Position numbers and translations under genes: made by a program
Notes under the pieces: generated by a model
The model's input: the letters and a program-made list of their open reading frames with translations, nothing else
Told to the model about the DNA's origin: nothing
Databases searched by the model: none
Source of the DNA: Sedimentibacter hydroxybenzoicus DSM 7310
GTDB lineage: Bacteria; Bacillota; Clostridia; Tissierellales; Sedimentibacteraceae
Direction of reading: 5' to 3'
NCBI RefSeq assembly: GCF_013403245.1
Contig: NZ_JACBNQ010000001.1
Coordinates: forward strand, 186,001-250,000
DNA length: 64,000 bases
In this document: positions 1,979 to 27,455 of the stretch, piece by piece
Position numbering within the stretch: the stretch's first letter is position 1
How the letters are laid out: every line of letters starts with the position of its first letter

Positions 1979-2024
1979 CAGTATAAGCGACCGGCACCAA
2001 ATCGTAAGATTAGGTGTCGGTCAT
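1979..2024. repeat. Palindromic intergenic repeat, copy A
   Basis: Begins CAGTATAAGCGACCGGCACC, has an AAATC..GATTAGGTG core and returns as GGTGTCGGTC. The two arms form a hairpin of about ten pairs. The same sequence family occurs at 5302-5353, 19730-19782 (inverted) and 27456-27510. This copy directly follows the MoaD-like gene and may also act as a transcript end. Confidence 0.75.
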
Positions 2025-2055
2025 TTCGTTATATTTATAAAAATACAACGAAATG
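2022..2055. promoter_or_regulatory. ModE-box-like palindrome upstream of the molybdenum aldehyde oxidoreductase
   Basis: The arms CATTTCGTT and AACGAAATG are perfectly complementary and the centre is AT-rich. The inner 24 bases (2027-2050) read CGTTATAT, 8 bases, ATACAACG. This is the 8+8+8 spacing and half-site shape of the E. coli ModE operator (CGTTATAT, 8 bases, ACATAACG). It lies about 270 bases before the mop-type gene. It could instead be only an mRNA hairpin, because it directly follows repeat copy A. Confidence 0.5.
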
Positions 2056-2322
2056 AGCGGATATGTAAAAAATAATAAAGTTGAAAGCCCATATTTTATA
2101 GTTATCCTACTTACAAATGTATAGGTAAAATTGGAACGAATTGACATTTAGAAAAAATATCAGCGGAAATAAGACGAATAGAAAACTATGTTAAACAATA
2201 AAAACTAATAAAAGTTGAAATGTTTTTTTTATTTATATATAATTATGTATAAATGTTTACGTTTTCTTATTATGAGAATAGGCGTTTTATTTTAACAAAT
2301 CTAAAAAAATATGGGGGTTCGT

Positions 2323-5247
2323 ATGAAACTAAGAAAAATGTGGTTAAACGTCAATGGTGCAAACAGGATGTTTATTTGCAATCCTGAAAAAGATTCATTA
2401 TCTACAGTTTTAAGAAGAATGGGGCTCACAGGCACAAAAGTAGGATGTGGTACAGGAGTGTGCGGGTCTTGTTCAATTGTTTTGGATGGGAAATTAATAC
2501 GTTCATGTACTAAAAAAATGAAGACTGTAAAAGAATACAGCAAGGTTATTACTATTGAAGGAATTGGAACTCCAAATAATCTTCACCCCATACAGGTTGC
2601 CTTTATGAATTGCGGTGCTGTACAGTGCGGCTTTTGTACTCCCGGTTTCATTGTTTCTTCATACGCATTATTATTAGAGAACAACAATCCAACACGTGAA
2701 GAAGTTCGTGACTGGTTCCAGAAACATAGAAATGTATGTCGTTGTACCGGATATGTACAAATAGTTAATGCGGTAATGGATGCTGCAAAAGTATTGAGGG
2801 GAGAAGCATCTATTGAAGATATAACGGTTCCGATGCCTAAGGACAATGAATATTACGGGAAACCTCTTGTTCGTCCTACCTCTTTGTCAAAGGTTTGTGG
2901 TGTTGCAGATTATGGCGATGATCAGGAACTTAAAATGCCGGAAGAATCTCTTCATGTAGCTATTGTACAACCTAAAGTTGCTCACCATGCTAAAATATTA
3001 AAAATAGACACTTCCGCAGCTGAAAAAATGCCCGGAGTAGTTAAGATTATTACTTCTAAAGAGCTGTTAGAAGCCGGTGGAACAAATATTATGGCTGAAG
3101 CACAGTTCCATGAAAGAACTACTGTTATGGTTCCGAGCCGTAAAATATTATGTGATGAAAAAATTTATCGTTATGGCGACGTTGTGGCTCTTGCAGTTGC
3201 AAAAACGAAAGAACAAGCACGTGCAGCAGCAGCCGAAGTAAAAGTTGAAATTGAAAAGCTTCCGGAATATTTAAATTATCTTGATGCGGTAATGCCGGAT
3301 TCAATCAGAGTCCATGAGGATACTCCAAATATTTTCTCGATGCAGCCGGTATTGAAAGGTGTTGGATTGGAAGAAGCACTAAATGTGAATGATGTTATTG
3401 ATAATTCGGCTTATAGTACTTCCGGTAGTTTTTATTCTTCTCGCCAGCCTCACCTGTCTATTGAAGGAACAACTGTACAGGCATATTTTGACGAAGAAGA
3501 TAACTTAGCTATTCAATGTAAGTCACAGGGGGTATATTCAACCATTGGTCGTATAGGAAATTCTGTAGGTGTACCTAAAGATAAAATACGTATAATAATG
3601 AATCCAACGGGTGCAAGCTTTGGATGGTCTACAAATGCCGGAGATGTTTGTCTTGCAGCGGCGGCAGCGGTTGTTACAAAAATGCCTGTTGCTTTATCAT
3701 TGACTTATGAAGAGCATCAGCATTTCTCAGGGAAGAGATGTCCATGCCATTCTAACGGACGCGTGGCTTGTGATGAAAACGGAAAAATTACAGCAGCAGA
3801 ATTTGAATTCGGGATGGATCACGGTGCATATTCGTGGGGAGGCGATGACATAATGACTAAGCCTGCACGTTTTGCATTCTTCCCGTACAATATTCCTAAT
3901 GTTGCCGGATTAGTCAGAATAGCAAATACAAATCACAATTTCGGAACTGCCTACAGAAGCTACGGTTCACCACAAGCATATACATTGTCAGAGGCATTGA
4001 TGGATATGCTTGCAGAAAAAGCAGGTATCGACCCATTTGAATTCAGATATAGAAATATCGCAAGAGAAGGGGAAACAAATATTAACAGCTATCCATTCCG
4101 TCAATACCCAATGGAAGAAATGATGAATATCATGAAACCTATTTATGAAAAGGCGGTTGAAGAAGCTAAAAAATATGATACTCCTGAAAAACGCAGAGGT
4201 GTTGGTCTTTCATGGGGAGGCTTTAACGTTACTGAAGGCGGAACTGACAGTGCATCTGTAGCAATTGAACTCAATAGTGACAATACATTTACAAAATATG
4301 ACACATATCAGGAATTAGGTCAGGGCGGTGATATCGGTTCATTAATGCTTACTCTTGAAGCTTTGAAGCCACTAAAAGTAACACCTGAACAAATCAAACT
4401 TGTACAAAACGATACTAAACTTTGTCCGGACAGCGGAATGTCCGGTGCAAGCAGGACTCACTATATGAGTGGTAAAGCAACTATAATAGCTGCTGAAAAA
4501 CTAATGAATGCAATGAGAAAAGAAGACGGCACTTATCGTACATACGACGAGATGGTTGCTGAAGGAATTGAAACTAAGCATTTTGGTAAGTATCAAAATA
4601 CTTCGGTAGAAGGACTTTGTCGTTTAGACCCTAACACAGGAATAGGCGATCCGACTCCGGCATTTACATATTGTTTAAATTTAGCTGAAGTTGAAGTTGA
4701 CACAGCTACAGGAAAAACAACAGTAATTCGCTTCACTTGTGTAGATGATGTTGGTAAGGTTGGAAATATAGCGGCAGTAAACGGTCAGGCATATGGAGGG
4801 ATTTCTCACAGCATAGGTTTTGCTTTAAGCGAAAATTATGATGATGTTGTTAAACATTCAAATATGTTAGGAGCAGGCGTTCCATACATAAAAGATGTAC
4901 CTGATGTAATAAATGTTATACATTATGAAAGACCTGATGAAATAGGACCATTCGGTTCATCCGGAGCTTCTGAAGCATTCCAGTCAGCAGGACATGTGGC
5001 TGTGCTTAATGCTATAAGCAATGCATGCGGAGTACGTATTTATGAAATGCCTGCAACAAAAGAAAAAGTTAAGGCAGGTCTTGATATAATTGCTGCAGGT
5101 GGGAAAGTTGAGCCACCGAAAAAATATTTCCTAGGTTCTGATTTATATGATGAACTTGAGAATATTAAAGCAAATCCTGTAAAATTTGGAGGAGACGATT
5201 TCTTCATTCCATTAGGTAATGATGCAAATGCGGAAAGATTTTTCTAA
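2323..5247 (+). CDS. mop: Mop-type molybdenum aldehyde oxidoreductase (xanthine oxidase family)
   Basis: A 974-residue single-chain molybdenum hydroxylase that closely follows Desulfovibrio gigas aldehyde oxidoreductase (about 907 residues). Order: plant-type [2Fe-2S] domain (GCGTGVCGSC, residues ~40-50), helical [2Fe-2S] domain (CGFCTPGF and RNVCRCTGY, ~105-145), hammerhead domain, then the two molybdopterin domains. The motif GPFGSSGASEAF near residue 885 holds the Glu expected to be the catalytic base. There is no FAD domain, so electrons must leave to another protein, probably the redox protein encoded next. The family uses molybdopterin cytosine dinucleotide, and a MocA-like enzyme is encoded nearby. 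I prefer ATG 2323, with GGGGG just upstream, over ATG 2311. The substrate is not known. Confidence 0.93.
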   Translation: MKLRKMWLNVNGANRMFICNPEKDSLSTVLRRMGLTGTKVGCGTGVCGSCSIVLDGKLIRSCTKKMKTVKEYSKVITIEGIGTPNNLHPIQVAFMNCGAVQCGFCTPGFIVSSYALLLENNNPTREEVRDWFQKHRNVCRCTGYVQIVNAVMDAAKVLRGEASIEDITVPMPKDNEYYGKPLVRPTSLSKVCGVADYGDDQELKMPEESLHVAIVQPKVAHHAKILKIDTSAAEKMPGVVKIITSKELLEAGGTNIMAEAQFHERTTVMVPSRKILCDEKIYRYGDVVALAVAKTKEQARAAAAEVKVEIEKLPEYLNYLDAVMPDSIRVHEDTPNIFSMQPVLKGVGLEEALNVNDVIDNSAYSTSGSFYSSRQPHLSIEGTTVQAYFDEEDNLAIQCKSQGVYSTIGRIGNSVGVPKDKIRIIMNPTGASFGWSTNAGDVCLAAAAAVVTKMPVALSLTYEEHQHFSGKRCPCHSNGRVACDENGKITAAEFEFGMDHGAYSWGGDDIMTKPARFAFFPYNIPNVAGLVRIANTNHNFGTAYRSYGSPQAYTLSEALMDMLAEKAGIDPFEFRYRNIAREGETNINSYPFRQYPMEEMMNIMKPIYEKAVEEAKKYDTPEKRRGVGLSWGGFNVTEGGTDSASVAIELNSDNTFTKYDTYQELGQGGDIGSLMLTLEALKPLKVTPEQIKLVQNDTKLCPDSGMSGASRTHYMSGKATIIAAEKLMNAMRKEDGTYRTYDEMVAEGIETKHFGKYQNTSVEGLCRLDPNTGIGDPTPAFTYCLNLAEVEVDTATGKTTVIRFTCVDDVGKVGNIAAVNGQAYGGISHSIGFALSENYDDVVKHSNMLGAGVPYIKDVPDVINVIHYERPDEIGPFGSSGASEAFQSAGHVAVLNAISNACGVRIYEMPATKEKVKAGLDIIAAGGKVEPPKKYFLGSDLYDELENIKANPVKFGGDDFFIPLGNDANAERFF

Positions 5248-5267
5248 AAATATTATTTAATTTTAAG

Positions 5268-5300
5268 TTCCCGGGCATATTAGCTCGGGAACAAAATTTC
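5268..5300 (+). terminator. Terminator-like hairpin after mop
   Basis: The arms GTTCCCG and CGGGAAC surround GGCATATTAGCT and are followed by AAAATTTC. The T-run is poor, so termination may be partial and the next gene could still be co-transcribed. Confidence 0.6.
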
Positions 5301-5301
5301 A

Positions 5302-5353
5302 CTTACAGTATAAGCGATTGACACCAAATCAGAGATTTTGGTCATCTGCTTAA
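5302..5353. repeat. Palindromic intergenic repeat, copy B
   Basis: CTTACAGTATAAGCGATTGA, then CACCAAATC, AGA, GATTTTGGTC and ATCTGCTTAATAGG. Same family as copies A, C and D. It ends right at the ribosome binding site of the next gene. Confidence 0.8.
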
Positions 5354-5367
5354 TAGGAGAGACATGT

Positions 5368-7623
5368 ATGGATATAAAAAAAGAAGATTTTAATGAAAAG
5401 ATTAAAACTTGTTTGCAGAACGAACCGTCTTTTTGTACAGCAGTCTGTCCATTTCATCTTGATATTCATGACTTTATTCCTAAAATGCAGCGTGGAAGAT
5501 TTAACGCGGCATACAGAACTTATCTGAATGCTGTTGTTTTTCCAAACATAGTATCAGAATTATGCCATGAACCATGCAAAAAGGTATGTCCGAGAAGTTC
5601 GAAAGATGAAGCAATAAATATGAAGCTGTTGGAAAAAGCAAGTATAAAATTTGCAAGAAATTTAGAGCCAAACAGCTATAATATGCCGCCAAAAAATAAA
5701 AAAGTTGCAATAGTAGGTGCAGGAATAAGTGGTTTAAGCTGCGCTTTACGTCTGGCTTCAAAAAAGTATGATGTTACTGTTTTTGAGAAATCCGGACGCA
5801 TTGGCGGACACCTTTGGGATTTATCAGAACCCGAAATATTTTTAAATGATATAGAGAGGCAGTTTAAAAACGAAAAATACACATTGTGTTTAAATAAAGA
5901 AGTTATAAACTTAGAAGAATTAAAAGAAAAGTATGATGCTGTTTATGTCGCCACAGGCAAAGATGGCAGTAATTTTGGATTAAAAAGAAATTTCAATGGA
6001 GCCTTTGCAAGCAACACACCCGGAATTTTTATGGGTGGCATGCTGTGCGGCAAAAACATAGTGGAGTCAATTGCAGATGGGATTTATGCTGTAAATGCTA
6101 TTGAAAGATATATTAAAACCGGCAATATGAACCAGGAAGAGGAGAAAAACGATACAAAGATAAAAATAAACGCAGATTTTATCACAGAGGTAGAGCCTGT
6201 CATGCCTTCCGATGACGGAACGTATACAAGCGAAAATGCGGTTGAAGAAGCTAAACGCTGTTTGAGGTGCTCCTGTGATGCATGTATAAGGCATTGTGAT
6301 TTGATGAAGTATTATGGAAAATATCCTAAAAGAATCGGCGAAGAGGTTCATATTACAGTCCATCCCGGAACGCTTGACGGTAATGGCACTGTGGCAACCC
6401 GCCTTATTTCCACATGCAATCAGTGCGGACTTTGTAAGGATGTTTGTCCTGAACGAATAGATACAGGCGAGTATCTTTTACAAAGCCACAGAGAGATGAG
6501 GGAAAAGGGAGCAATGCCATGGGCATTTCATGATTTCTGGCTCAGAGATATGGAGTTTGCTAATGGAGAAAAGACAGCTCTTTGTAAAATCCCAAAAGGC
6601 TTTGATAAAAGTAAGTATGCATTTTTCCCAGGGTGTCAGCTGGGTGCTTCAGACTATAGATACGTAATAAAAAGCTATGAATATTTGTTAAAACAAAACC
6701 CTGATACTGCTATTATGCTGAATTGCTGTGGTGCTCCGGCAGAATGGGCAGGGGATGAACCGATTCATAGAGGTGTGATAGAAACAATCAGAAACTGCTG
6801 GTTAAGCACGGGAAAACCTACCGTAATATTTGCTTGTACAACCTGCAGAAAAATGTTTAATAAATATTTACCTGAAATAAGCGGCATTTTTCTTTATGAA
6901 TTAATGGAAAAAGGAAATATTAATATCGATTGTGCAAATGCGAATGAAAAAGCTTCAGTGTTTGATCCCTGTACAAGCCGTGATGAGCCGGCACTTCAAA
7001 ATTCCGTAAGGGCATTGAGTTCTAAAGGTGGCTTTGAACTTGAACCTCTTTCACATGAAGGGAAATATGCAAAGTGCTGCAGCTGGGGAGGTCAGGTTTC
7101 GGTTGCAAATCCTTCGTATTCAAAAGAAGTAGTTAAAGCCAGATTGTCACAAAGTATCAACCCTTATATAGCATATTGCAGTAATTGCAGAGATATATTC
7201 GCTTTAACCGGCAAAAATGTTTATCATATTCTTGATATAGTTTTTAACTTAAATGACAGCAACAGAAAGCCACCCACATTTACGGAAAGAAGAAAAAACC
7301 GGGTACTGTTAAAGCAAAAAATCATAAAAGATATATTTAATGAGGAAATTATGGAACAAAAAGATAGTAAAACAAAGCTTATTATAGAAGAAGAATTAAA
7401 AGAGAAACTAAGCAGTGAAATGATACTTGAAACAGAAATTGAAGAAGTTATCGAGCATTGCGAAAGAGAAGGAAAAAAAGTGTTGGATGGTGGAAGCGGC
7501 CATTTTATCGGTCATCTCAAAATTGGTACTATGACATATTGGGTTGAGTATGATGTATGCGGAGACCACTGCTATACGCTTTATAACGCATATGCTCACA
7601 GAATGAGTATAGAGGAGAGTTAA
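5368..7623 (+). CDS. Multi-cluster Fe-S/FAD oxidoreductase with HdrB/D-like CCG domains
   Basis: A 751-residue cytoplasmic redox protein and the likely electron partner of the aldehyde oxidoreductase. Residues ~15-85 form a GltD-like N-terminal Fe-S domain (CTAVCPFHLD, CHEPCKKVCP). A Rossmann segment follows at ~110-140 (AIVGAGISGLSCALRL). Then come ferredoxin-type motifs (CLRCSCDACIRHCD; CNQCGLCKDVCPE) and two CCG-type domains as in heterodisulfide reductase (FFPGCQLG..NCCGAPAEWAG; DPCTSRDE..KCCSWGG). The last ~90 residues are a separate small domain. It corresponds to what I recall as the pyridine nucleotide-disulfide oxidoreductase/dicluster-binding family of the DVU_1551-1559 neighbourhood. 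ATG 5368 with AGGAG 8 bases upstream is chosen; an upstream TTG lies in the repeat. Confidence 0.8.
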   Translation: MDIKKEDFNEKIKTCLQNEPSFCTAVCPFHLDIHDFIPKMQRGRFNAAYRTYLNAVVFPNIVSELCHEPCKKVCPRSSKDEAINMKLLEKASIKFARNLEPNSYNMPPKNKKVAIVGAGISGLSCALRLASKKYDVTVFEKSGRIGGHLWDLSEPEIFLNDIERQFKNEKYTLCLNKEVINLEELKEKYDAVYVATGKDGSNFGLKRNFNGAFASNTPGIFMGGMLCGKNIVESIADGIYAVNAIERYIKTGNMNQEEEKNDTKIKINADFITEVEPVMPSDDGTYTSENAVEEAKRCLRCSCDACIRHCDLMKYYGKYPKRIGEEVHITVHPGTLDGNGTVATRLISTCNQCGLCKDVCPERIDTGEYLLQSHREMREKGAMPWAFHDFWLRDMEFANGEKTALCKIPKGFDKSKYAFFPGCQLGASDYRYVIKSYEYLLKQNPDTAIMLNCCGAPAEWAGDEPIHRGVIETIRNCWLSTGKPTVIFACTTCRKMFNKYLPEISGIFLYELMEKGNINIDCANANEKASVFDPCTSRDEPALQNSVRALSSKGGFELEPLSHEGKYAKCCSWGGQVSVANPSYSKEVVKARLSQSINPYIAYCSNCRDIFALTGKNVYHILDIVFNLNDSNRKPPTFTERRKNRVLLKQKIIKDIFNEEIMEQKDSKTKLIIEEELKEKLSSEMILETEIEEVIEHCEREGKKVLDGGSGHFIGHLKIGTMTYWVEYDVCGDHCYTLYNAYAHRMSIEES

Positions 7624-7624
7624 T

Positions 7625-7816
7625 ATGACTGAAAAAAAAATAATATGTTTTAAATGCAATAAGGAATTAGTGCCTAAAAAAACATATTTCAATTATCTTG
7701 AGCATAGTTTTTTTACTGATATTTTAAGTTGTCCTGACTGCGGAGAAGTATTTATTTCTGAGGAATTAGTTAAGGGACGTATTTCAGAAGTTGAAATGCA
7801 ATTAGAGGATAAATGA
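7625..7816 (+). CDS. Small zinc-ribbon/redox protein, DVU_1557-like
   Basis: A 63-residue protein with two CxxC knuckles, CFKC near residue 9 and CPDC near residue 37. These are spaced as in a YgiT/MqsA-type zinc ribbon or a small Fe-binding domain. The start ATG lies 1 base after the preceding stop and the next gene starts 6 bases downstream, so it is part of the operon. Its place beside the redox protein and the CoA ligase-like protein matches the small redox protein of the Desulfovibrio locus. Whether it binds zinc or iron cannot be told from the sequence. Confidence 0.65.
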   Translation: MTEKKIICFKCNKELVPKKTYFNYLEHSFFTDILSCPDCGEVFISEELVKGRISEVEMQLEDK

Positions 7817-7822
7817 TATTAT

Positions 7823-9121
7823 ATGAAAGATATTATAAAACAATCTCCGGTAGATTATTGGATTGCTAATAGACTTGGAATTGAAATAAAGAACCTTACA
7901 CAGGATAAATTGTTTAATATACAATTAGATGCTTTCAGGGAAACAGTAAAATATGTTAAAAGGGAAAGTAAATACTATAAAAAACTTTTTAGTAACATTG
8001 AGCCTGAAGATATTAAAACAAAAAAAGATATTCAAAACATGCCATTAACTTGTGAACAAGACTTCATGGGAAATGAAAAAGAGTTTTTATGTGTAAGTCA
8101 AAGAGAAATTAATAGAGTGGTAACTGTTCATACTACCGGAACAACAGGGAGACAAAAACGAATATATTTTTCTGAAAGGGATCAGCTCAGCACTATTGAA
8201 TTTATGCGTGTAGGATTCAGCACAATGATTAGGCCTAACGATGCTATGCTGGTTATGATGTCAGGAGGAACAGAAGGAAGCATAGGAAGATCCGTCGAAT
8301 ACGCATTGGACAAGTCAGGTATAAAAACAAATGTATACGGCTCAATAGTTAATGTGCGTGACGCTTATGAAAATTTGATAAGCTTTAAGCCTAATATCAT
8401 TGTTGGAATCCCTCACCAGATAAGAGCATTAAGCAAGTATGGCCAGAAATTTGATAACCCTGAAGCGAAATACATTAACAGTGTCTTATTGAGTGCGGAT
8501 GATATTCCGGAGTCCCTGAGGAAACGTATCAGCAGCCTGTGGGATTGTAAAGTATTCAATCATTATGGCATGACTGAATTTGGTATTGCAGGGGGAGTGG
8601 AATGTGAAGGATTTTCAGGTTACCACACCCGTGACTTGGATTTGTACTTTGAAATAATAAACGAAGATGAGAATGGTATAGGTGAAATAGTATTTACAAC
8701 TTTAAATCGTGAGGGAATGCCTTTAATTCGTTATAAAACAGGTGATGTAGGTAAATTTACAGAAACCGAATGTCCATGCGGCAGTAAGTTAAAGCGTATT
8801 GAAAGGGTATACGGCAGAAAAAGAAATATAATTAAATTGTTTGATGGAGGAGAACTACATCTTTCTGAAATAGGTAATGCTGTATTTTATGAAGATAATA
8901 TTGTTGATTATGAATGTACGGTAAGAAATTCGGAGTTAGTTATTGAAGTAAAAATTTTTCCGGAGGATGAAGTTGATATAAATACCATATTAAATAAATT
9001 AAAGCAAATCGATACTATAGATAATGCAATAAAAAATGGCCTAAAAATTGAAATCAAAATTTTGCATTCAATATACTTTCCAGAGGATGGTAACATTAAA
9101 AATACTGTAGTTTTTCAATAG
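7823..9121 (+). CDS. AMP-forming CoA ligase-like protein (PaaK superfamily), DVU_1553-like
   Basis: A 432-residue member of the adenylate-forming superfamily, of the length of phenylacetate-CoA ligase. The P-loop-like motif HTTGTTGRQKR lies near residue 102, the A5 motif NHYGMTEFG near 250, and RYKTGDVG near 300. Adenylation of a carboxylate is therefore likely; CoA as acceptor is an inference from the family. The metal-like motif ECPCGSKLKRIERVYGR follows. The gene sits inside the molybdenum operon, where a ligase could activate the acid made by the aldehyde oxidoreductase or a precursor of a modified cofactor. The substrate is unknown. Confidence 0.75.
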   Translation: MKDIIKQSPVDYWIANRLGIEIKNLTQDKLFNIQLDAFRETVKYVKRESKYYKKLFSNIEPEDIKTKKDIQNMPLTCEQDFMGNEKEFLCVSQREINRVVTVHTTGTTGRQKRIYFSERDQLSTIEFMRVGFSTMIRPNDAMLVMMSGGTEGSIGRSVEYALDKSGIKTNVYGSIVNVRDAYENLISFKPNIIVGIPHQIRALSKYGQKFDNPEAKYINSVLLSADDIPESLRKRISSLWDCKVFNHYGMTEFGIAGGVECEGFSGYHTRDLDLYFEIINEDENGIGEIVFTTLNREGMPLIRYKTGDVGKFTETECPCGSKLKRIERVYGRKRNIIKLFDGGELHLSEIGNAVFYEDNIVDYECTVRNSELVIEVKIFPEDEVDINTILNKLKQIDTIDNAIKNGLKIEIKILHSIYFPEDGNIKNTVVFQ

Positions 9122-9191
9122 ATGTATTGTCACAGAACATTTTTGATGGCTTAATGATTTTTATAAAGGTAATAACGAGGAGGGATAATGC

Positions 9192-9644
9192 ATGTTTAAT
9201 GATTTAGCAATGAAAATTTACAAACTTTCTACGCAAGGCTACTGCTGCACACAAATTATGTTAAAATTAGCGCTTGATGAAGAAAACAAGGGAAATCAAG
9301 ACTTAATTAAAAGTGCAAATGGATTTTGTAAAGGATTAGGAGGAAGACAGGGAATATGCGGAGTTCTTTCCGGAGGCATCATGATACTCAGCCTTTATGC
9401 AGGAAAGGGAAGTGATGGCGAATATAGTCATAACAATTACGGCAGTATGGTAAATGAATTCATTGATTGGTTTGAAGATGAATTTTGCAGCTTAGAATGC
9501 ATTGATATTATAGGAGTTAACAGCTTTGAAGAAAACAACAATAGTTATATGCTTAAGTGTGGGAACATATTAGTTAAAAGCTATGAAAAGGTTGTTGATA
9601 TATTAAATGAAAACGATTATGAATTTGGTTACAGAGAAGATTAA
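9192..9644 (+). CDS. C_GCAxxG_C_C family protein, DVU_1555-like
   Basis: A 150-residue Cys-rich protein of the C_GCAxxG_C_C family, whose members are thought to bind metal or Fe-S and often sit beside oxidoreductases. Visible Cys: GYCCTQ near residue 15, NGFCKGLGGRQGICGVLSGG near 43-60, DEFCSLEC near 97 and MLKCGN near 117. The start ATG 9192 follows a good GAGGAGGG site. The reading frame overlaps the next gene by 38 bases, which suggests translational coupling. Its precise function is not known. Confidence 0.75.
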   Translation: MFNDLAMKIYKLSTQGYCCTQIMLKLALDEENKGNQDLIKSANGFCKGLGGRQGICGVLSGGIMILSLYAGKGSDGEYSHNNYGSMVNEFIDWFEDEFCSLECIDIIGVNSFEENNNSYMLKCGNILVKSYEKVVDILNENDYEFGYRED

Positions 9645-10764
9645 TAAAACAGGTGCGGTTATAGTTGCAGCCGGTATGTCTTCACGTATGAAGGACTTTA
9701 AGCCATTAATGAAAATCGGCAAATATTCAATGATAGAAAACGCGGTGATTAATTATAAAAAGAGCGGAATAGATGAAATAATAATAGTTACAGGCTTTCG
9801 CGAGAATGACATTAAAGAAAAATTGACCGGTTATGATGTTAAATTTGTTCATAATAAAGATTATTCGAAAACACAGATGTTTGATTCCGTGTGCATTGGG
9901 CTAAAAGAATTTGCAGACAATGCAGATATGATATTTATAACACCGGCAGATTGCCCTTTTGTCCAAACGTATACACTCAAGAAAATGATGGAAGAAATGG
10001 ATAATAATGAACTTTATTATATAAGGCCGTACTATTTAGGAAAAAGCGGACATCCTCTCTTAGTAAGCAATAAATGTGCAGGAATAATTTTAGAACATGA
10101 TGGTGCAATGGGGTTGAAGGGTGCCGTTAATAAAATTTCAGAAAACTACAAAAACATGTCTTTTGTTGATCCAGGTATTTTATTGGATGCAGATAATCCA
10201 TCGGAATTTCAAAAATTACTGTCGTATAAAGAAAACAGCAAGTACCCATCAATGGATATTTGCAGACAGATATATGATAACTTTAATATAAGTAAAGAAA
10301 TAAAATTACACTCTGAAAAAGTAACTGAAGTTGCATTATCTATTTATAATATGATGTATAAGTGCGGAATAATTTTAAATAAGGATCTTATTGTTGCGGC
10401 AAGTATGCTTCATGATATTGCCAAGGGCGAGAAAAAACATAATATTGTAGCAGCACAATGGATAAGAGAAATGGGCTATAAGGAAGTTTCAGATATTATA
10501 GAAGAGCATATGCACCTCCGTGATTATAACGATGAAATAACTGAAAAGGAAGTTGTGTATTTAGCAGATAAGCTGGTCGCAGGTGATAGGTTAGTAACTA
10601 TTGAGCAAAAATTCGCAGCAAAAGAGCAACTATATGCTTATGATCTTAATGTGCTTAAAATCATAAAAGAAAGAAAAGAACAGGCAATGAAATGTTATAG
10701 CATGATATATAAGCAGGAAGAAAATAATATATGTGCAATAGAAACAAGTATGGAGGAAAAGTAA
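9607..10764 (+). CDS. MocA/MobA-like nucleotidyltransferase fused to an HD domain, DVU_1551-like
   Basis: A 385-residue two-domain protein. Residues ~13-200 are a molybdenum cofactor nucleotidyltransferase domain: AVIVAAGMSSRMKDFKPLM for nucleotide binding, then FITPADCPF for the metal site. MocA proteins of this type attach CMP to molybdopterin to give MCD, the cofactor of the xanthine oxidase family. Residues ~215-345 are an HD phosphohydrolase-like domain (LHSEKVTEVA, MLHDIAKGEKKH, IIEEHMHL). The fusion might couple cofactor synthesis with hydrolysis of a nucleotide or phosphoester, which is inferred. The start may be ATG 9607 or ATG 9619; neither has a clear ribosome binding site, fitting coupling to the overlapping upstream gene. 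Confidence 0.8.
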   Translation: MKTIMNLVTEKINKTGAVIVAAGMSSRMKDFKPLMKIGKYSMIENAVINYKKSGIDEIIIVTGFRENDIKEKLTGYDVKFVHNKDYSKTQMFDSVCIGLKEFADNADMIFITPADCPFVQTYTLKKMMEEMDNNELYYIRPYYLGKSGHPLLVSNKCAGIILEHDGAMGLKGAVNKISENYKNMSFVDPGILLDADNPSEFQKLLSYKENSKYPSMDICRQIYDNFNISKEIKLHSEKVTEVALSIYNMMYKCGIILNKDLIVAASMLHDIAKGEKKHNIVAAQWIREMGYKEVSDIIEEHMHLRDYNDEITEKEVVYLADKLVAGDRLVTIEQKFAAKEQLYAYDLNVLKIIKERKEQAMKCYSMIYKQEENNICAIETSMEEK

Positions 10765-12080
10765 TGACTGACAAAACTATTAGCCTTTGCCCGATATGTT
10801 TAAAACGCATAGAGGCAACATACATAAATAAAAATGACACTATATTTCTTTGTAAAAATTGTAAAGAACATGGGGATTTTTTTACTCCCGTATGGAGGGG
10901 GTATCCTTCGTTAGATAAGTGGGTTAAAAATTCACCGGAAATAGAAAATAATAATAATAATTGTCCTGATATGTGTGGATTGTGCGAATACCATGGAAAT
11001 AAAACCTGTTGCACAATACTTAATGTAACTGACAAATGCAATCTTAAATGCAATTTTTGTTTTGCAGGTGAATTAACTCAGAGGGAGCCATCTTATGATT
11101 ACATAAAAAAATGCTTAGATGATATGGCTGACAAAAAAATTACACATATTCATTTTAGCGGGGGAGAGCCTACAACCCGAAATGATATACCTGAATTGGC
11201 TAAATATGCAGTAAGTAAAGGATTTAAGTATATACAGCTTAATACTAACGGATTAAGAATAGCACGCGATGAATCATATGCTAAGGAGCTGGCTGATGCA
11301 GGCATAAGTGCTGTATTTCTTCAATTCGACTCAACAGATGATGACATTAATAAGACTATCAGAGGAGTTCCATTATTAGCTGAAAAGATTAAGGCTATAG
11401 AGAATTGTGATAAAGCATATCTTGGCGTCGTACTGGTACCTACGCTGATACCTGGTGTAAATACTGATAACATCGGTGATATAATAAAGTTTGGTATAGG
11501 CTATATTCCTGCAGTCAGAGGTATTCATTTTCAGCCGGTAACTTATGTCGGTAAATATCCGGAAGATCCCGAAAATTGTAATCGAATTACAATTCCGGAG
11601 GTTTTAAGAGCAATAGAAAAGCAAACAGAAGGAATGATAAAAACAGAACAGTTTACCCCTTCAAGCTGTTATCATCCTATGTGCAGCTTTCATGCCGAGT
11701 TTGTTTATGATAATGAAAGACTGATGCCACTGCTTAAAAAGCAATCGGGTAAAAAACAATCAGGAAGCTGTTGTTCAACAGATGATGTACCAAGTAACGC
11801 AGTAAGAAAAAACCAAAACTTTTTAAATCAAAAATGGACTCGTCCAGATAAATGTGAATGTTCAGAAGATAAAACGTCTATGGAAGGTTTCTTGAGCTAT
11901 ATGAAAAATAAAAGTTTTACAATCAGTTCAAAAGCTTTCCAAGATGAATACAACATAGATTTAAACAGATTAAAAAGATGTTCGCTGCATGTTTACGATA
12001 ATGGAAAGCTGATACCTTTTTGTGCAGAATATACATATCATAAGAATCAAAAATTATTTAACTTTCCTGACGGATGCTAG
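10764..12080 (+). CDS. Radical SAM protein with MJ0619/Tes-like N-terminus (TrsS-like)
   Basis: A 438-residue radical SAM enzyme. The cluster motif DKCNLKCNFCFA lies near residue 93, and HFSGGEPTTRND follows. Before it is a Cys-rich N-terminus: CPIC near residue 9, CKNCKEHGDF near 35 and CPDMCGLCEYHGNKTCC near 70. That layout is shared with MJ0619 (pterin methylation) and archaeal tetraether lipid synthase. The C-terminal part has SGSCCSTDD and a further Cys cluster (CECSEDK), likely auxiliary cluster ligands. I recall the family name TrsS for the (seleno)protein at this position in related loci; no in-frame UGA occurs here. ATG 10764 with GGAGG upstream overlaps the preceding stop by one base (TAATG). 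Its substrate is unknown. Confidence 0.82.
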   Translation: MTDKTISLCPICLKRIEATYINKNDTIFLCKNCKEHGDFFTPVWRGYPSLDKWVKNSPEIENNNNNCPDMCGLCEYHGNKTCCTILNVTDKCNLKCNFCFAGELTQREPSYDYIKKCLDDMADKKITHIHFSGGEPTTRNDIPELAKYAVSKGFKYIQLNTNGLRIARDESYAKELADAGISAVFLQFDSTDDDINKTIRGVPLLAEKIKAIENCDKAYLGVVLVPTLIPGVNTDNIGDIIKFGIGYIPAVRGIHFQPVTYVGKYPEDPENCNRITIPEVLRAIEKQTEGMIKTEQFTPSSCYHPMCSFHAEFVYDNERLMPLLKKQSGKKQSGSCCSTDDVPSNAVRKNQNFLNQKWTRPDKCECSEDKTSMEGFLSYMKNKSFTISSKAFQDEYNIDLNRLKRCSLHVYDNGKLIPFCAEYTYHKNQKLFNFPDGC

Positions 12081-12088
12081 GAGGTATT

Positions 12089-12775
12089 ATGAATTTATAT
12101 GAAAGTGATACTTTGAAAAATGCAATTGGAGATGCATTGAGACCGGGAGGATTTCAACTTACTGACAGAGCGTTGGATTTCTGTAAATTTCAGTCAGGAG
12201 ATATGTTGCTGGATTTAGGATGCGGAAGAGGAGCTACAATAAATTATATTAATAGCAATTATGACTATAAAATTTGCGGGTTAGATATTTCGGAGAAGTT
12301 AATTTCTTATGCAAGAAGTATTAATAAGGACAATGAAATTATATTATCATCTGCTGATAATATATTGTATGAAAATGAATTTTTTCATGGTGTGATAGCA
12401 GAATGCACATTATCATTGATGGAAGGTATTCAAGAAGTGTTTAAAGAAGTTAACAGGGTATTAAAAAATAATGGTTACTTTATAATTACTGACGTTTATG
12501 CAAAAAAAACAGAATACTTAGAAGAACTTAAAAAATTTGAACTAAATACATGTTTAAAAAACCCTCTTGACTTAATCATACTAAAGGAATTTCTTTCAAA
12601 CAGCGGGTTTAATGTTTTACTCGAGGAAAGACATGATAATATGATTATACAGCTTGTAGCGGATATTATTTTTAATGGATGCAGCACAACCAACCTTTGT
12701 ATTGACAGAAAAATGAAAGACCTGCTGATAAAATCTAAAATTGGATATATGTTAATGATTGCACAAAAGAGGTAA
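12089..12775 (+). CDS. Class I SAM-dependent methyltransferase, DVU_1556/TrsM-like
   Basis: A 228-residue Rossmann methyltransferase. Motif I is LLDLGCGRGATINYI near residue 41 and the acidic loop is CGLDISEKLI near 65. HGVIAECTLSLMEG near 105 replaces the usual post-motif IV NPP-type sequence. It is the last large gene of the aldehyde oxidoreductase operon, and the chosen ATG sits 5 bases after AGGAGG while the preceding ORF is ending, so the two are coupled. Being paired with the radical SAM enzyme suggests that both act on one product. The acceptor of the methyl group is not predictable. Confidence 0.75.
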   Translation: MNLYESDTLKNAIGDALRPGGFQLTDRALDFCKFQSGDMLLDLGCGRGATINYINSNYDYKICGLDISEKLISYARSINKDNEIILSSADNILYENEFFHGVIAECTLSLMEGIQEVFKEVNRVLKNNGYFIITDVYAKKTEYLEELKKFELNTCLKNPLDLIILKEFLSNSGFNVLLEERHDNMIIQLVADIIFNGCSTTNLCIDRKMKDLLIKSKIGYMLMIAQKR

Positions 12776-12841
12776 ACATTGTATAATAATATAAAAGAAA
12801 ATTTGGATTAAAAAAATGAGCTGCCGGATTCTTTCAGACAG

Positions 12842-12865
12842 CGTTATATTTTTAAAAAGACAATG
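12842..12865. promoter_or_regulatory. Second ModE-box-like sequence
   Basis: CGTTATAT, 8 bases, AGACAATG. By eye it matches the 2027-2050 site at 21 of 24 positions, including the AT-rich centre, though the right half-site is weaker. It lies 10 bases before the Cys-rich small ORF and about 170 bases before the strong ModE box of modA. Confidence 0.3.
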
Positions 12866-12875
12866 AATCGAAATA

Positions 12876-12989
12876 ATGGCAGATGAGGTTTTAATTTTAT
12901 CTGATATAAGTAAGCTTAGTCCGGGTGATTCGTGTTTAAATTGCAGCATTTGCACATTTCCTAACTGTGGATTTGGCAAAGGCTGCTAA
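12876..12989 (+). CDS. Putative 37-residue Cys-rich peptide
   Basis: ATG 12876 opens a 37-codon frame whose first 19 residues are ordinary (MADEVLILSDISKLSPGD) and whose end is packed with Cys: CLNCSICTFPNC and then GFGKGC. That gives six Cys in the last 18 residues, in CxxCxxC spacing like a cluster-binding tail. There is no clear ribosome binding site. The same frame runs back through one UGA (12864) to ATG 12816. It lies between the methyltransferase and modA. It may be a real metal-binding or substrate peptide of the upstream operon, or the surviving 3' end of a lost gene. I do not recognise the family. Confidence 0.4.
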   Translation: MADEVLILSDISKLSPGDSCLNCSICTFPNCGFGKGC

Positions 12990-13033: not shown

Positions 13034-13061
13034 AACGTTATACTTTAGTAAGTATAACGTT
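13034..13061. promoter_or_regulatory. ModE box of the modABC operon
   Basis: A perfect 28-base inverted repeat: AACGTTATACTT, TAGT, AAGTATAACGTT. The 24-base core (CGTTATAC, 8 bases, GTATAACG) has the half-sites and spacing of the E. coli ModE operator. It lies 31 bases before the modA start and overlaps a possible -10 (TATACT at 13039), so bound ModE would repress. A gene for a ModE-type DNA-binding domain is encoded at the other end of the operon. Confidence 0.8.
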
Positions 13062-13092: not shown

Positions 13093-13866
13093 ATGAAAAA
13101 AAATTTATGTTTATTTTTAGTTATTATTTCAACACTTTTTTTAATTAGCTGTAGTGACACACAAAAAGTGCAATCGGATACTACGATCCTTGTTTCAGCT
13201 GCTGCAAGCTTGAAAAATTGCATGGAAAATGATTTGATTCCCATGTTTGAACAAAAGAATCCCAATATAAAAATTAATGCTACATATGACAGTTCAGGCA
13301 AGCTTCAAGCACAAATCGAAGAAGGAGCAGATGTGGATGTATTTATGTCTGCTGCCGAAAAACAAATGAATGCATTAAATGAAAAAGGTTTGATCGTTGA
13401 GAACTCCATTGTACCTTTGTTGGAAAACGAGTTGGTACTTATAGTGCCTAAGGGAAATGAAAACAATATAAAAGATTTCGATGATATGCTGAATGCAGAA
13501 ATTATTGCTGTGGGCGATCCTGAAAGTGTTCCTGCAGGACAATATGCCAAGGAGTTATTAGAAAATTTAGACTTATGGGATGAGGTATCAGGCAAATCAA
13601 GCTTAGGAACCAATGTTACGGAGGTTTTGAACTGGGTAGCAGAAGGAAGTGCTGATACAGGAATTGTATATGCAACCGATGCAGCTTCTAATGATAAGGT
13701 TGAGGTGGTTTCGGCAGCACCTGAAGGTAGCGTATCAAAAGTAATTTATCCTGTAGGTATCATAAAAGCAACGACTAAATTGGACCCCTCGAAATCTTTC
13801 GTTGAATTTTTACAAACTGACGATGCAAAAGAAATCTTTGCAAAATATGGCTTTAAGCCGAATTAA
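13093..13866 (+). CDS. modA: Molybdate/tungstate ABC transporter, substrate-binding lipoprotein ModA
   Basis: A 257-residue periplasmic-type binding protein of the usual ModA length. The N-terminus is a lipoprotein signal with lipobox LISC near residue 19, so it is anchored outside the membrane. The mature part starts with the ModA hallmark TILVSAAASLKNCMEN, in which Ser residues contact the oxyanion, and continues with NATYDSSGKLQAQIEEGAD. The start follows CGAGGAG by about 8 bases. modB and modC follow within 10 bases and 0 bases. It captures molybdate, and possibly tungstate, for the enzymes encoded upstream; selectivity cannot be read from the sequence. Confidence 0.93.
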   Translation: MKKNLCLFLVIISTLFLISCSDTQKVQSDTTILVSAAASLKNCMENDLIPMFEQKNPNIKINATYDSSGKLQAQIEEGADVDVFMSAAEKQMNALNEKGLIVENSIVPLLENELVLIVPKGNENNIKDFDDMLNAEIIAVGDPESVPAGQYAKELLENLDLWDEVSGKSSLGTNVTEVLNWVAEGSADTGIVYATDAASNDKVEVVSAAPEGSVSKVIYPVGIIKATTKLDPSKSFVEFLQTDDAKEIFAKYGFKPN

Positions 13867-13875
13867 GGAATTTAT

Positions 13876-14556
13876 ATGAATTTATCTCCAATATTAATCT
13901 CAATAAAAACAGCTTCCGTATCAATAATTGTGACATTTTTTCTTGGAATTTTCATTGCAAGATCAATTGCTGATATGAAGTACGGAAAATTAAAAATTTT
14001 AATAGACGGAATTCTTACATTACCGTTGGTTTTGCCTCCGACAGTTGTCGGATTTTTCCTGCTGTTTATTTTTGGCGTCAAAAGACCTATAGGGATGTTT
14101 TTATTGGAATTTTTAAGTATTAAAATAGTGTTTTCATGGACCTCAACAGTTATTGCTGCTGTTATCGTTTCCTTTCCGTTGATGTACCGTTCTGCACGGG
14201 GAGCCTTTGAACAGGTGGATAAGGATTTAATATTGGCAGGGAGAACTCTGGGGATGTCTGAAAGAAAAATATTTTGGAGAGTTATAATGCCAAATGCTCT
14301 GCCGGGTGTGGCGTCCGGCGGCATTTTGGCATTTGCAAGAGGTCTCGGTGAATTTGGAGCAACAGCCATGATAGCCGGAAATATTGCAGATAAAACCAGG
14401 ACGTTGCCCCTTGCCATATATTCCGAGGTTGCCTCCGGTAACATGGAGGGTGCTTACTCGTATGTATTGGTGGTTATCATAGTGTCCTTTGTTGTGCTGT
14501 CTTTGATGAATTATTTTATTATGAAGCAAAATAAATATTCAAATAAAGGTGTATAG
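13876..14556 (+). CDS. modB: Molybdate ABC transporter permease ModB
   Basis: A 226-residue inner membrane permease with five to six predicted membrane segments, the usual ModB size. The EAA loop that contacts the ATPase reads AGRTLGMSERKIFWRVIMPNALPG around residues 120-145 (quoted here only as its family motif). ILTLPLVLPPTVVGFFLL near 46-63 is typical of ModB. It begins 10 bases after modA. The stop TAG is immediately followed by the ATG of modC. It forms the membrane channel of the molybdate transporter together with ModA and ModC. Confidence 0.93.
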   Translation: MNLSPILISIKTASVSIIVTFFLGIFIARSIADMKYGKLKILIDGILTLPLVLPPTVVGFFLLFIFGVKRPIGMFLLEFLSIKIVFSWTSTVIAAVIVSFPLMYRSARGAFEQVDKDLILAGRTLGMSERKIFWRVIMPNALPGVASGGILAFARGLGEFGATAMIAGNIADKTRTLPLAIYSEVASGNMEGAYSYVLVVIIVSFVVLSLMNYFIMKQNKYSNKGV

Positions 14557-15606
14557 ATGAGTTTATCAGTTTCAATAAAGAAAAAGTTCAAGGATTTTAA
14601 TTTAGATGTGAATTTTGAAAACGACGGTGATTATTTTGGTGTATTAGGTCCTTCGGGCAGCGGTAAAAGCATGACTTTAAAATGTATAGCCGGCTTGGAA
14701 ACTCCCGATGAAGGCCGTATTGTGTTCAATGACAGAGTTCTGTTTGATTCACAGCAAAATATTAATGTAAAGCCTCAGGACAGAAAAATAGGTTATCTGT
14801 TTCAGAGCTATGCATTGTTTCCAAATATGACTGCTGAACAAAATATAGGCTGCGGTTTAAAATGCTCTAAAGAAGATAGGAAAATAAAAACAGGTAAAAT
14901 GATCGAGTTGTTCCATCTTGAAGGATTAGAAAAGAAATATCCGTGGCAACTATCGGGGGGACAGCAGCAAAGGGTTGCCTTAGCCCGTATTTTTGCTTAT
15001 GAACCGGAAGCATTATTGCTTGATGAGCCGTTTTCCGCATTGGACTCGCACCTGAAGGAAGAGCTCCAAGCGGAGGTTTTTGAGTTTTTAAAGCTATACG
15101 AAGGGCAAGTGCTGATGGTTACACATCAAAGAGATGAAGTTTATAAATTCTGCAAAAATCTTGCAATTTTAAATAAAGGTAAATTAATTATATACGGAGA
15201 TACCAAGGTTATATTTAATGAACCAAGAACGGTTGAAGCGGCTAAAATAATCGGCTGTAATAATATTTCCCCATGCCGAATTATTTCTTCGGGACAAATT
15301 TTCGTTAATGATTGGGATATTGTACTGCAAACAGAAAAAAAGATACCTGAAAATATAACGTACATAGGTATCAGAGCTCATAGCTTTAAAATTGTAAATA
15401 ATAATCACGAACCAAATATTATGGATTGCGAAATTGTTAATATAACAGATGAACTGTTTGAATACAGCATAGTTTTTAAAAATAGAGCTTCGGAAAACAG
15501 TAAAAAATTAATTTATAAAATAAAAAAGAATGAGTGGGACAGCACAACAAATAAAAATAAGCTTTTTTTAAAAATTCCTGAGGAATCGATATTTATGCTG
15601 ACATAA
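14557..15606 (+). CDS. modC: Molybdate ABC transporter ATP-binding protein ModC
   Basis: A 349-residue ABC ATPase. Walker A is GPSGSGKS near residue 32, the signature is [14 protein letters not shown] near 130 and Walker B is ALLLDEPFSALD near 152. The region after residue ~230 corresponds in position to the MOP/TOBE regulatory domain of ModC but is poorly conserved. It drives molybdate import through ModB. It begins directly after the modB stop and is the last gene of the operon, ending 3 bases before the convergent ModE-like gene. Confidence 0.92.
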   Translation: MSLSVSIKKKFKDFNLDVNFENDGDYFGVLGPSGSGKSMTLKCIAGLETPDEGRIVFNDRVLFDSQQNINVKPQDRKIGYLFQSYALFPNMTAEQNIGCGLKCSKEDRKIKTGKMIELFHLEGLEKKYPWQLSGGQQQRVALARIFAYEPEALLLDEPFSALDSHLKEELQAEVFEFLKLYEGQVLMVTHQRDEVYKFCKNLAILNKGKLIIYGDTKVIFNEPRTVEAAKIIGCNNISPCRIISSGQIFVNDWDIVLQTEKKIPENITYIGIRAHSFKIVNNNHEPNIMDCEIVNITDELFEYSIVFKNRASENSKKLIYKIKKNEWDSTTNKNKLFLKIPEESIFMLT

Positions 15607-15609: not shown

Positions 15610-15954
15610 TTAAAGGTATTCATTGAAATATTCATCGAATATTTCGGTGGCTTTATTTTTCAATTCATTTTCATATGCTTCATATTTCTCTAAAAATTCA
15701 ATACATTTTTGAGTTAAGCTCGAACCGCCTCCGCCCAAGCCGCCGATTTTTCTTTCCAAAAGCTTAAAGCCGAGGTTTTTTTCTGATCCCTTTATCATTC
15801 TCAACGCCTTTGTATATGATAAATTCATTTGCTTGCAGGCAGCATTCAACGAGTCATATTCATTTGTCAATTTAAGCAAGGTTCTGACTCCCGGTCCGAA
15901 AAATATTTCTTCCTTAGCTAACCGTATTTGTAATATATAATGTAAGTTATCCAT
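15610..15954 (-). CDS. ModE-type winged helix-turn-helix regulator (DNA-binding domain only)
   Basis: A 114-residue protein that matches the N-terminal DNA-binding domain of ModE: LAKEEIFFGPGVRTLL, the helix-turn-helix SLNAACKQMNLSYTKALRMI, and the ERKIGGLGGGGSSLT wing near residue 80. It lacks the two C-terminal MOP domains that bind molybdate in E. coli ModE, so metal sensing must work differently or through a partner. ATG 15954 is preceded by GGAGG at 6 bases. Its operator is probably the palindrome at 13034-13061. It is transcribed towards modC and ends 3 bases from it. Confidence 0.85.
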   Translation of the reverse strand: MDNLHYILQIRLAKEEIFFGPGVRTLLKLTNEYDSLNAACKQMNLSYTKALRMIKGSEKNLGFKLLERKIGGLGGGGSSLTQKCIEFLEKYEAYENELKNKATEIFDEYFNEYL

Positions 15955-16064
15955 AATCATCCTCCAATCAAATATATAATACCAAAAATTTCGGGAAAAT
16001 GATATAATAAAATTGTTATTCTGAGCCGGAGGCGAAAACTGACAAATCATAAAAAGGAGTTTTT

Positions 16065-27374: not shown

Positions 27375-27416
27375 ATTGGAATATACATAACTACAAAATG
27401 AAATGTAAAATTTCAA

Positions 27417-27446: not shown

Positions 27447-27455
27447 GATTATTTC

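Follow-up and report, generated by a model that had tools for sequence, protein, structure and literature searches.

The subject of this study is a stretch of 64,000 nucleotides from the genome of Sedimentibacter hydroxybenzoicus DSM 7310 (C1:186001-250000; genome of 3.81 Mb in 71 contigs), in the following called the window, and in it a row of eight plus-strand genes (2311-12775), overlapping or separated by short gaps, which begins with mop, the gene for a molybdenum-dependent aldehyde oxidoreductase (Mop). We tentatively propose, as a possible reading that we hold with somewhat less than even confidence, that this locus is one functional unit around an aldehyde-oxidizing enzyme. Mop would oxidize aldehydes with an ordinary molybdopterin cytosine dinucleotide (MCD) cofactor, for which a MocA-like nucleoside triphosphate (NTP) transferase and a modABC transporter would supply cofactor and metal. 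The second protein of the row, here called diclust, would be the dedicated electron acceptor of Mop and replace the flavin adenine dinucleotide (FAD) domain that is absent from it. Electrons would then pass from the [2Fe-2S] clusters of Mop to the 4Fe-4S clusters and FAD of diclust, further to two HdrB-like sites and finally to a thiol/disulfide-type acceptor, not to NAD(P). A zinc-ribbon protein and a C_GCAxxG_C_C protein would act as small redox partners of this diclust branch, while a ligase, the radical S-adenosylmethionine (SAM) protein TrsS and a methyltransferase would make or mature the acceptor by carboxylate activation, radical chemistry and methyl addition. The NTP transferase probably has its place in the supply of cofactor, and diclust is probably what the remaining six genes belong with.

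Composition and linkage of the gene set

All eight proteins exceed the curated NCBIfam cut-offs of their own models (given below as bits/cut-off), in agreement with the sequence-only reading, which had listed eight same-strand genes in this order and likened them to the DVU_1551-1559 families of Desulfovibrio. The mop gene (2311-5247; NF045668, 1152.9/1100) encodes an MCD-type aldehyde oxidoreductase of the type called C below, with two [2Fe-2S] domains and no FAD domain according to its Pfam matches, and a phmmer match to the 1SIJ/1VLB chain at E 3e-239. It is followed by the gene for diclust (5368-7623, or from an alternative TTG start at 5338; NF045663, 806.2/530; Pfam Fer4_20, Fer4_17 and CCG) and by genes for a 63-residue zinc-ribbon/redox protein of the DVU_1557 family (7625-7816; NF045645, 73.6/60), a PaaK-like AMP-forming ligase of the DVU_1553 family with a conserved core (7823-9121; NF045666, 395.7/300; AMP-binding domain PF00501) and the C_GCAxxG_C_C redox protein of the DVU_1555 family, CGC for short (9192-9644; NF045669, 161.4/103). 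The row ends with a fusion of a MocA-like NTP transferase and an HD domain (DVU_1551 family; 9607-10764; NF045665, 395.7/315; Pfam NTP_transf_3 and HD), with TrsS, a relative of the tetraether/macrocyclic archaeol synthase (10731-12080; NF045646, 504/490), and with a SAM methyltransferase of the DVU_1556 family (12074-12775; NF045667, 208.6/155; Methyltransf_11). The NTP transferase, which scores 116.8 bits against the MocA model TIGR03310 and thereby stays under its cut-off of 186.45, is a probable MCD cytidylyltransferase. Among the small proteins, CGC has four invariant cysteines across 25 aligned sequences, and the zinc ribbon keeps a CxxC...CPxC motif and a C-terminal E..LEDK across 85.

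A scan of genome contigs with a TrsS alignment gave at least 556 confirmed loci, and the neighborhoods of the best 80 were annotated with phmmer and hidden Markov models; having been chosen by similarity to TrsS, this sample shows linkage to TrsS and not an unbiased rate. All eight genes are present in 22 of these 80 loci and six or more in 42. The 47 loci with Mop contain diclust in 45 cases, the zinc ribbon in 44, the methyltransferase in 36, the ligase and CGC in 35 each and the NTP transferase in 24. Likewise, where at least 7 kb before and at least 4 kb after TrsS were at hand (46 of the 80), Mop, diclust and the zinc ribbon were each found in 35 loci, the ligase and the methyltransferase in 30 each, the C_GCAxxG protein in 29 and the NTP transferase in 23. 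This linkage is not due to chance. Loci that contain the gene set bear the titles Bacillota, Bacteroidales, Synergistaceae, Desulfobulbaceae and Holophagaceae, and members of the set co-occur even when unlinked, in line with the transferable module that had been suggested from the window alone.

Genome-wide co-occurrence was tested for Mop, TrsS, the ligase and diclust; the methyltransferase, CGC, the zinc ribbon and the NTP transferase were followed by neighborhood. Mop was detected at E <= 1e-150 in 28 of 30 genomes of named loci, and lay elsewhere in the genome in 23 of 25 cases in which the fetched TrsS locus had shown none; the ligase exceeded its cut-off in 13 of 14 genomes checked, including 10 of the 11 whose locus had shown none. 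In the 291 genomes of the window's class, the Clostridia, TrsS exceeds its cut-off in 11 and Mop exceeds its own in the identical 11 (Fisher 5e-19 when G101, whose Mop is partial, is scored against the association), while three lone TrsS-like matches below the cut-off (G004, G132 and G226; genomes carry G numbers and loci L numbers) come with no Mop at threshold and no partner genes in the stretches fetched.

The Desulfovibrio family was surveyed in 199 genomes with TrsS and with a 304-residue Mop query taken from the sequence common to PDB entries 1SIJ, 1VLB and 4C7Y of Desulfovibrio gigas, both at E <= 1e-80. Mop was found in 133, TrsS in 129 and both in 125 (Fisher 2e-37), leaving eight genomes with Mop only (G347, G372, G420, G432, G444, G456, G501 and G509) and four with TrsS only (G321, G483, G495 and G517). 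Nine of these 12 are split hits or contig ends: on inspection, G420 and G432 do have TrsS, in G483 and G517 a fragment of Mop lies where a contig ends, and for G347, G444, G456, G495 and G509 the contigs stop too early to tell. In G501, one Mop is paired with diclust at the end of a contig and another stands alone, and G321, with a pair of TrsS and no Mop, stands as an exception. The ligase exceeds its cut-off in 130 genomes of the family, of which 129 could be named; 125 of these are among the 133 with Mop and the others are G321, G495, G511 and G517. A check of co-occurrence had been proposed with the sequence-only reading, and in most genomes the families do not occur independently of each other. 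Since 13 of the 15 genomes of this family with at least two Mop hits (up to four, in G508) have exactly one TrsS, the other two being G372 and G501 with none, the data suggest that one gene set serves several Mops. In the Clostridia, however, G111, G157 and G179 speak against this, with a set next to each of their two Mops.

Mop types, diclust and the accessory enzymes

At the thresholds used, 130 genomes of Synergistota yielded TrsS in 25, Mop in 53, the ligase in 21 and diclust in 27; a single genome, G650, has TrsS without Mop, on a short contig. Their Mops fall into three score bands, namely the D. gigas-like A (at least 1580 bits), B (1310-1500) and the window-like C (1100-1160), with four genomes outside them (G536, G609, G611 and G615). 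The 23 genomes with type A or C have TrsS in 22 cases (all but G589), diclust in 22 (all but G644) and the ligase in 19, those without ligase being G570, G572, G584 and G612. Two of the no-ligase cases, L225 and L226, show a piece of ligase of 204-240 bits at the TrsS end, so the missing ligase may be an effect of the threshold. By contrast, the 26 genomes with type B and neither A nor C have TrsS once (G529, a fragmentary genome), diclust three times (G529, G649 and G658) and the ligase once (G649), a difference from the A/C genomes that for TrsS corresponds to Fisher 1e-11. In G649 and G658, diclust adjoins another Mop (1206 bits and a contig-end fragment, respectively) and not the type B copy.

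In a quick maximum-likelihood tree of 81 Mops, 12 type B sequences form one branch with an SH-like approximate likelihood-ratio (SH-aLRT) support of 100. None of the six genes (diclust, zinc ribbon, ligase, CGC, TrsS and methyltransferase) lies near these 12 rows; the tree has six more rows with none of them in the vicinity, in part because the contig is too short. Of the 11 loci with genes of the type B branch, three contain mod-type transporters and two an NTP transferase. In an alignment that covers types A, B and C with 72 Mops, nine rows having been left out beforehand, 149 positions are kept in at least 97 percent of the sequences, and these include F421, G422, R533, Q807, E869, Q99 and C139, whose functions we take to be those of Mo-site residues. 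Eight positions, mostly conservative, set A and C apart from B. Because the sister type B keeps the Mo-site residues with none of the six genes nearby, these genes track the diclust protein more than the cofactor-binding residues of Mop.

In 55 of the 81 cases, which include type B and cut contigs, the first recognized gene after mop, at a distance of no more than 700 bases, is that of diclust; in 12 of the 81, no gene was recognized downstream. The protein begins with an N-terminal domain for 4Fe-4S and FAD, continues with a dicluster ferredoxin and two CCG cysteine sets of the HdrB type, and ends in a C-terminal domain that has no family match. Both cysteine sets (C-X~30-CC-X~35-CXXC) are invariant in 29 sequences (C423, C453/454 and C490/493; C535, C570/571 and C604/607), although the Pfam CCG model detects only the first of them. 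Aligned with solved structures, the diclust profile covers the GltD-like part of 8oh5 chain C as far as residue 291 and continues only from residue 454 on, and the next two structures aligned with it show the same type of jump. As these alignments skip it, the NAD(P)H domain is missing from diclust. Mop in turn lacks the FAD domain that xanthine oxidase has, and the simplest reading of the two domain layouts is that diclust would accept the electrons of Mop and, in the manner of HdrABC, deliver them to an acceptor of the disulfide kind.

When a profile was built from 14 TrsS sequences, its match to the glycerol dialkyl glycerol tetraether/macrocyclic archaeol synthase GDGT-MAS (7TOL; E 9e-126) fell into two parts that together span most of the length, and the window's TrsS reaches 330 bits against the NCBIfam model for this enzyme, Tes, under its cut-off of 450. 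The motifs and residues of GDGT-MAS have been described, among them Tyr459, which is proposed to be catalytic and is given as conserved in 1,000 archaeal homologues in the portions of the source consulted (PMC9433317). Of 108 distinct TrsS sequences, 105 have the motif of the rubredoxin site, 103 that of the radical SAM cluster and 101 that of the N-terminal cluster. The ligands of the C-terminal cluster were traced as far as Met439, the equivalent of which is present in 101, replaced by Lys in one and unreadable in six. The one with Lys is the TrsS of the window (10731-12080), where the replaced residue corresponds to a labile cluster ligand of GDGT-MAS. The equivalent of Tyr459 is Val in 96, Ile in five and Thr in one of the 102 readable TrsS sequences. 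We considered TrsS as an enzyme of membrane-spanning lipids and rejected this as the main reading, given that it is tied to Mop, has no Tyr459 and is shorter at the archaeal second half of the lipid site.

In 89 of the 108 sequences, TrsS has a cysteine that is absent from GDGT-MAS in the alignment. At this position, five residues before a conserved C-S/G-F/W motif, L225 (11654-11656) and L226 (8241-8243) have an in-frame TGA, which probably encodes selenocysteine, judging from the alignment and in agreement with the NCBIfam name '(seleno)protein'. Five further copies from Synergistota each show one TGA; most other TGA hits are ordinary-looking stops or lie before the start. No selenocysteine was seen at the CC motif of TrsS, and the window's copy has no internal stop or UGA.

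For TrsS, the ligase and METHYLTRANSFERASE, the adenylation core is kept in the ligase, and the methyltransferase shows a SAM fold and a conserved E-C. Parts of the set also occur apart from Mop. Two modules (L181 5641-11349 and L183 3-7199) combine one or more 2-hydroxyacyl-CoA dehydratase-like subunits with two tandem TrsS, a DVU_1553-type ligase and DUF5714. At L182 (3506-12279), CGC, with an in-frame TGA at an apparently conserved cysteine, is accompanied by a lone C-terminal domain of diclust, the zinc ribbon, the methyltransferase, a lipoamide-dehydrogenase-like protein, two TrsS and the ligase. Such a portable TrsS-ligase core beside varied redox enzymes suits the synthesis of a redox molecule better than the modification of one enzyme. 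No precursor of a ribosomally synthesized and post-translationally modified peptide was recognized in the window, where the intergenic gaps are short, and no systematic search for small peptides was made in the other loci; the 63-residue zinc ribbon as a precursor peptide is left as an idea. Moreover, C_GCAxxG and DUF5714 were compared as candidates for one superfamily, which we do not claim (profile comparison probability 0.1 percent over 18 columns).

Alternative roles of the set

The D. gigas enzyme bears on the proposal, made in the sequence-only reading, that the accessory genes build a modified cofactor for the oxidoreductase, and on the related idea that they modify Mop itself. One genome of the Desulfovibrio family, G335, can be taken as D. 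gigas because it matches the 304-residue query at 100 percent. It has diclust, zinc ribbon, methyltransferase, CGC, TrsS and ligase directly behind mop; the NTP transferase was not detected within the 36 kb fetched. The aldehyde oxidoreductase purified from D. gigas cells (DgAOR) is described as containing pyranopterin cytidine dinucleotide (PCD), in a structure at 1.28 Å (PMC3877041, PMC10223205). In the same partially consulted sources, the active and inactive forms have equal mass and activation is assigned to the oxidation state of the dithiolene, a mass comparison that is made between these two forms and comes, in those portions, with no statement of equality with the mass of the bare sequence. 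A stable modification of MCD or of the protein should show in the crystals unless the genes were silent in those cultures. The gene content of D. gigas together with an ordinary MCD/PCD in its crystals, which is our main argument and is taken from these published descriptions, weakens the idea of a modified MCD (e.g. a methylated one), as does the type B clade with its same named Mo-site residues and none of the genes. The near-obligate co-occurrence with Mop types A and C would suit this idea, and so would the XdhC-like and MoeA-like genes that recur nearby and the 31 positions that set the window's type C apart from A and B, some of which adjoin Mo-site residues (423, 424, 427, 532 and 868). 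It could also be linked to the first report of the TrsS homologue MJ0619 as a pterin methylase, a claim that, according to the partly consulted source, could not be corroborated (PMC9433317). Altogether, we regard a modified cofactor or Mop as quite improbable. The other half of the earlier proposal, that the accessory enzymes process the product of Mop, stands as a possibility.

In such a catabolic pathway, Mop would convert an aldehyde to an acid, the ligase would activate the acid as a CoA or AMP ester, TrsS and the methyltransferase would convert it further and diclust would remove the electrons. The PaaK-like nature of the ligase with its AMP-binding domain speaks for this, as do an iron alcohol dehydrogenase and a short-chain dehydrogenase between mop and diclust in G649, an aldehyde dehydrogenase-like gene in six of the 80 loci, and the 2-hydroxyacyl-CoA dehydratase-like proteins that ligase and TrsS adjoin elsewhere. 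Three genomes (G111, G157 and G179) even have one set per Mop, yet in the Desulfovibrio family the multi-Mop genomes have one TrsS in 13 of 15 cases and none in two, and a single product pathway would hardly suit paralogues that differ in their substrates. Furthermore, no CoA enzyme was recognized among the nine recurrent unlabelled clusters scanned by representative, and a Tes-type radical enzyme with methylation would be unusual for a catabolic step, so that we consider this pathway doubtful, if conceivable. A different possibility is that the genes mature diclust or the C_GCAxxG protein, by special Fe-S sites or post-translational modification, and that no free molecule is made. The Synergistota comparison, in which the genes follow diclust, is compatible with this, and the conserved C-terminus of the zinc ribbon is as expected for docking or a carrier peptide. 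On the other hand, HdrB-type clusters assemble elsewhere with no such genes, an AMP-forming ligase has no obvious place in maturation, and in L182, where TrsS, ligase and methyltransferase are present, diclust is reduced to a C-terminal fragment. This explanation seems improbable to us.

Several observations also weigh against the unit of Mop, diclust and acceptor that we favor, in which both a Mop-diclust complex and a small-molecule acceptor are conjectural. CCG domains are also found in enzymes that do not reduce disulfides. The TrsS-TrsS-ligase module exists with no Mop in L181 and L183, and in the Clostridia G111, G157 and G179 the set lies beside each of two Mops, which counts against a single shared cofactor pool. 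G649 has Mop, diclust, zinc ribbon, C_GCAxxG protein and ligase, while its genome has no TrsS at threshold and the fetched stretch no methyltransferase; G589 keeps only a remnant of TrsS; and G372, with two Mops and neither TrsS nor ligase over thresholds, stands as an exception. Given these three genomes, the set is not strictly indivisible. The bands A, B and C were set after the list had been seen, and the 31 positions of type C may mean that its substrate or cofactor surroundings differ. An XdhC-like 'aldehyde oxidoreductase maturation factor' cluster is present in 15 of the 80 loci (representative 316 bits, cut-off 350) and a MoeA-like protein, absent from the window's set, in seven; both fit a maturation of the Mo cofactor or of Mop. 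Finally, a flavodoxin has been proposed and modelled as the partner of D. gigas AOR, according to the sections consulted (PMC10223205).

Beyond the preferred reading, the acceptor itself might be a small redox cofactor that is as yet undescribed, perhaps a thiol or aromatic carrier. Ligase, TrsS and methyltransferase would make it as a specific acceptor for Mop-diclust, and it would serve further redox reactions of anaerobes with 2-hydroxyacyl-CoA dehydratase-like and lipoamide dehydrogenase-like partners. This is a speculative and on balance unlikely extension; if true, anaerobes would have in this molecule their own equivalent of mycofactocin, one that escaped notice although the enzyme next to it has been under study for almost 40 years.

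Neighboring features and known systems

The eight genes are followed by a transporter with the domains SBP_bac_11, BPD_transp_1 and ABC_tran (13093-15606, plus strand), which from its make-up of solute-binding protein, permease and ABC ATPase and from its ModE neighbor is taken as modABC; ModC-like matches occur in ten of the 80 TrsS loci. The neighbor is a ModE-like regulator on the minus strand (15610-16050), with a ModE domain and 52 bits against TIGR00637, under the cut-off of 98.5. ModE-like inverted repeats of the form CGTTAT-N12-ATAACG lie on the plus strand upstream of mop (2027-2050, one mismatch, within an inverted repeat at 2018-2059) and upstream of modA (13036-13059, perfect), so that the transporter and sites noted earlier are indeed attached to the locus. 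Two or more sites of this form also arise in 2 of 100 shuffles. A longer pattern is found in four places at up to three mismatches against 0.17 expected, and 0 of 100 shuffles reach four, a comparison that is partly circular because the pattern was derived from the 13036 repeat, and in which one place (63830) is far from the locus. No Moco riboswitch was matched by Rfam at gathering thresholds within the window.

Directly upstream of mop, at 96-1972 of the window, are genes for a ferredoxin, an aldehyde ferredoxin oxidoreductase, presumably of the tungsten type, and a ThiS/MoaD-like protein. This trio also precedes mop in L067 and was recorded at L025 (9112-11724); a match to the aldehyde ferredoxin oxidoreductase was found in one of the 80 loci. 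Further away (25740-37476), the window has two tandem, similar operons for peptide-type ABC transporters that look like a duplication, with the solute-binding proteins assigned by Pfam and the rest by eye.

To survey other neighbors, the remaining open reading frames of the 80 loci were clustered, and representatives of nine recurrent clusters were scanned. An XdhC-like protein of the cluster named above, below its cut-off, is encoded at L070 (14586-15626), and the window's set has no such gene. Further recurrent neighbors, none of them in the window's set, are the aldehyde dehydrogenase-like protein, a CobW-like GTPase (six loci), an MbdU-like protein (eight) and an unmatched protein of 149 residues (eight). 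The CobW-like gene lies directly before TrsS, with no Mop nearby, at L048 (8213-9337), L078 (362-1507) and L080 (146-1255), and a partial match to the metal-binding double selenoprotein MbdU lies between zinc ribbon and TrsS at L032 (6651-7442). In L212 (2861-5002), a TrsS remnant that may reflect decay or misassembly lies between CGC and ligase, with mop, diclust, zinc ribbon and ligase kept. By Pfam, L223 (5452-7626; genome without TrsS at threshold) has an iron alcohol dehydrogenase and a short-chain dehydrogenase between mop and diclust.

As each of the eight genes has an NCBIfam model, several of them named after DVU_1551-1557, the curators knew the set. Haft and Tolstoy 2025 (mSystems) is reportedly the source of TrsS. 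Their paper may describe the neighborhood already, and hence we claim no priority for the linkage. In the literature searched, which did not include that paper, we found no described function of the set. TrsS appears in a table of a 2026 review, which in the portion consulted refers to Haft and Tolstoy 2025 (PMC13188914), and DVU1559 is referred to as an ethanol-related Aor in the consulted part of another study (PMC10920352). As far as the literature searched goes, the present analysis adds the comparison among Synergistota, the argument from D. gigas and the absence of an NAD(P)H domain from diclust. D. gigas AOR is a textbook structure of the xanthine oxidase family, and its physiological electron acceptor is still called putative; our data direct attention to a dedicated Fe-S/FAD partner, and with it to five more genes, which are usual with this type of Mop and missing beside a sister type. 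The bacterial branch of the tetraether-synthase radical SAM family thereby gains a biological setting.

The gene set corresponds to the DVU_1551-1559 set (NF045645, NF045646, NF045663 and NF045665-NF045669), with all eight families over cut-off, but the window's Mop is of type C, with 1153 bits where the D. gigas-like band has about 1600, and its order of TrsS, methyltransferase, CGC and ligase differs from that in the D. gigas genome. The window's Mop aligns with D. gigas AOR (1VLB/1SIJ) over nearly the full chain and has its two [2Fe-2S] domains, its MoCoBD domains and all of its named Mo-site residues, whereas it is longer (978 residues against 907), with about 55 residues past the aligned C-terminus. 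Like Mop, D. gigas AOR has no flavin domain, a flavodoxin being its putative partner in the sections consulted (PMC10223205). Diclust, in which a FAD unit like that of GltD is combined with a dicluster ferredoxin and two CCG sets of the HdrB type, in these parts resembles HdrABC and the GltD/NfnA-type FAD proteins, and differs from them as a single chain that has no NAD(P)H domain. HdrABC is a heterodisulfide reductase. TrsS shares the rubredoxin, N-terminal cluster and radical SAM motifs with Tes (MJ0619, 7TOL), while the segment that separates its two aligned parts is the shorter one, with 63 profile positions where Tes has 102 residues, and carries a cysteine, or UGA in some copies. Finally, the mycofactocin system is likewise a radical SAM-dependent set tied to oxidoreductases by phylogenetic profile, as far as the consulted portion of its description goes (PMC3023750); here, no precursor peptide is recognized, and a molybdenum enzyme takes the place of the nicotinoproteins.

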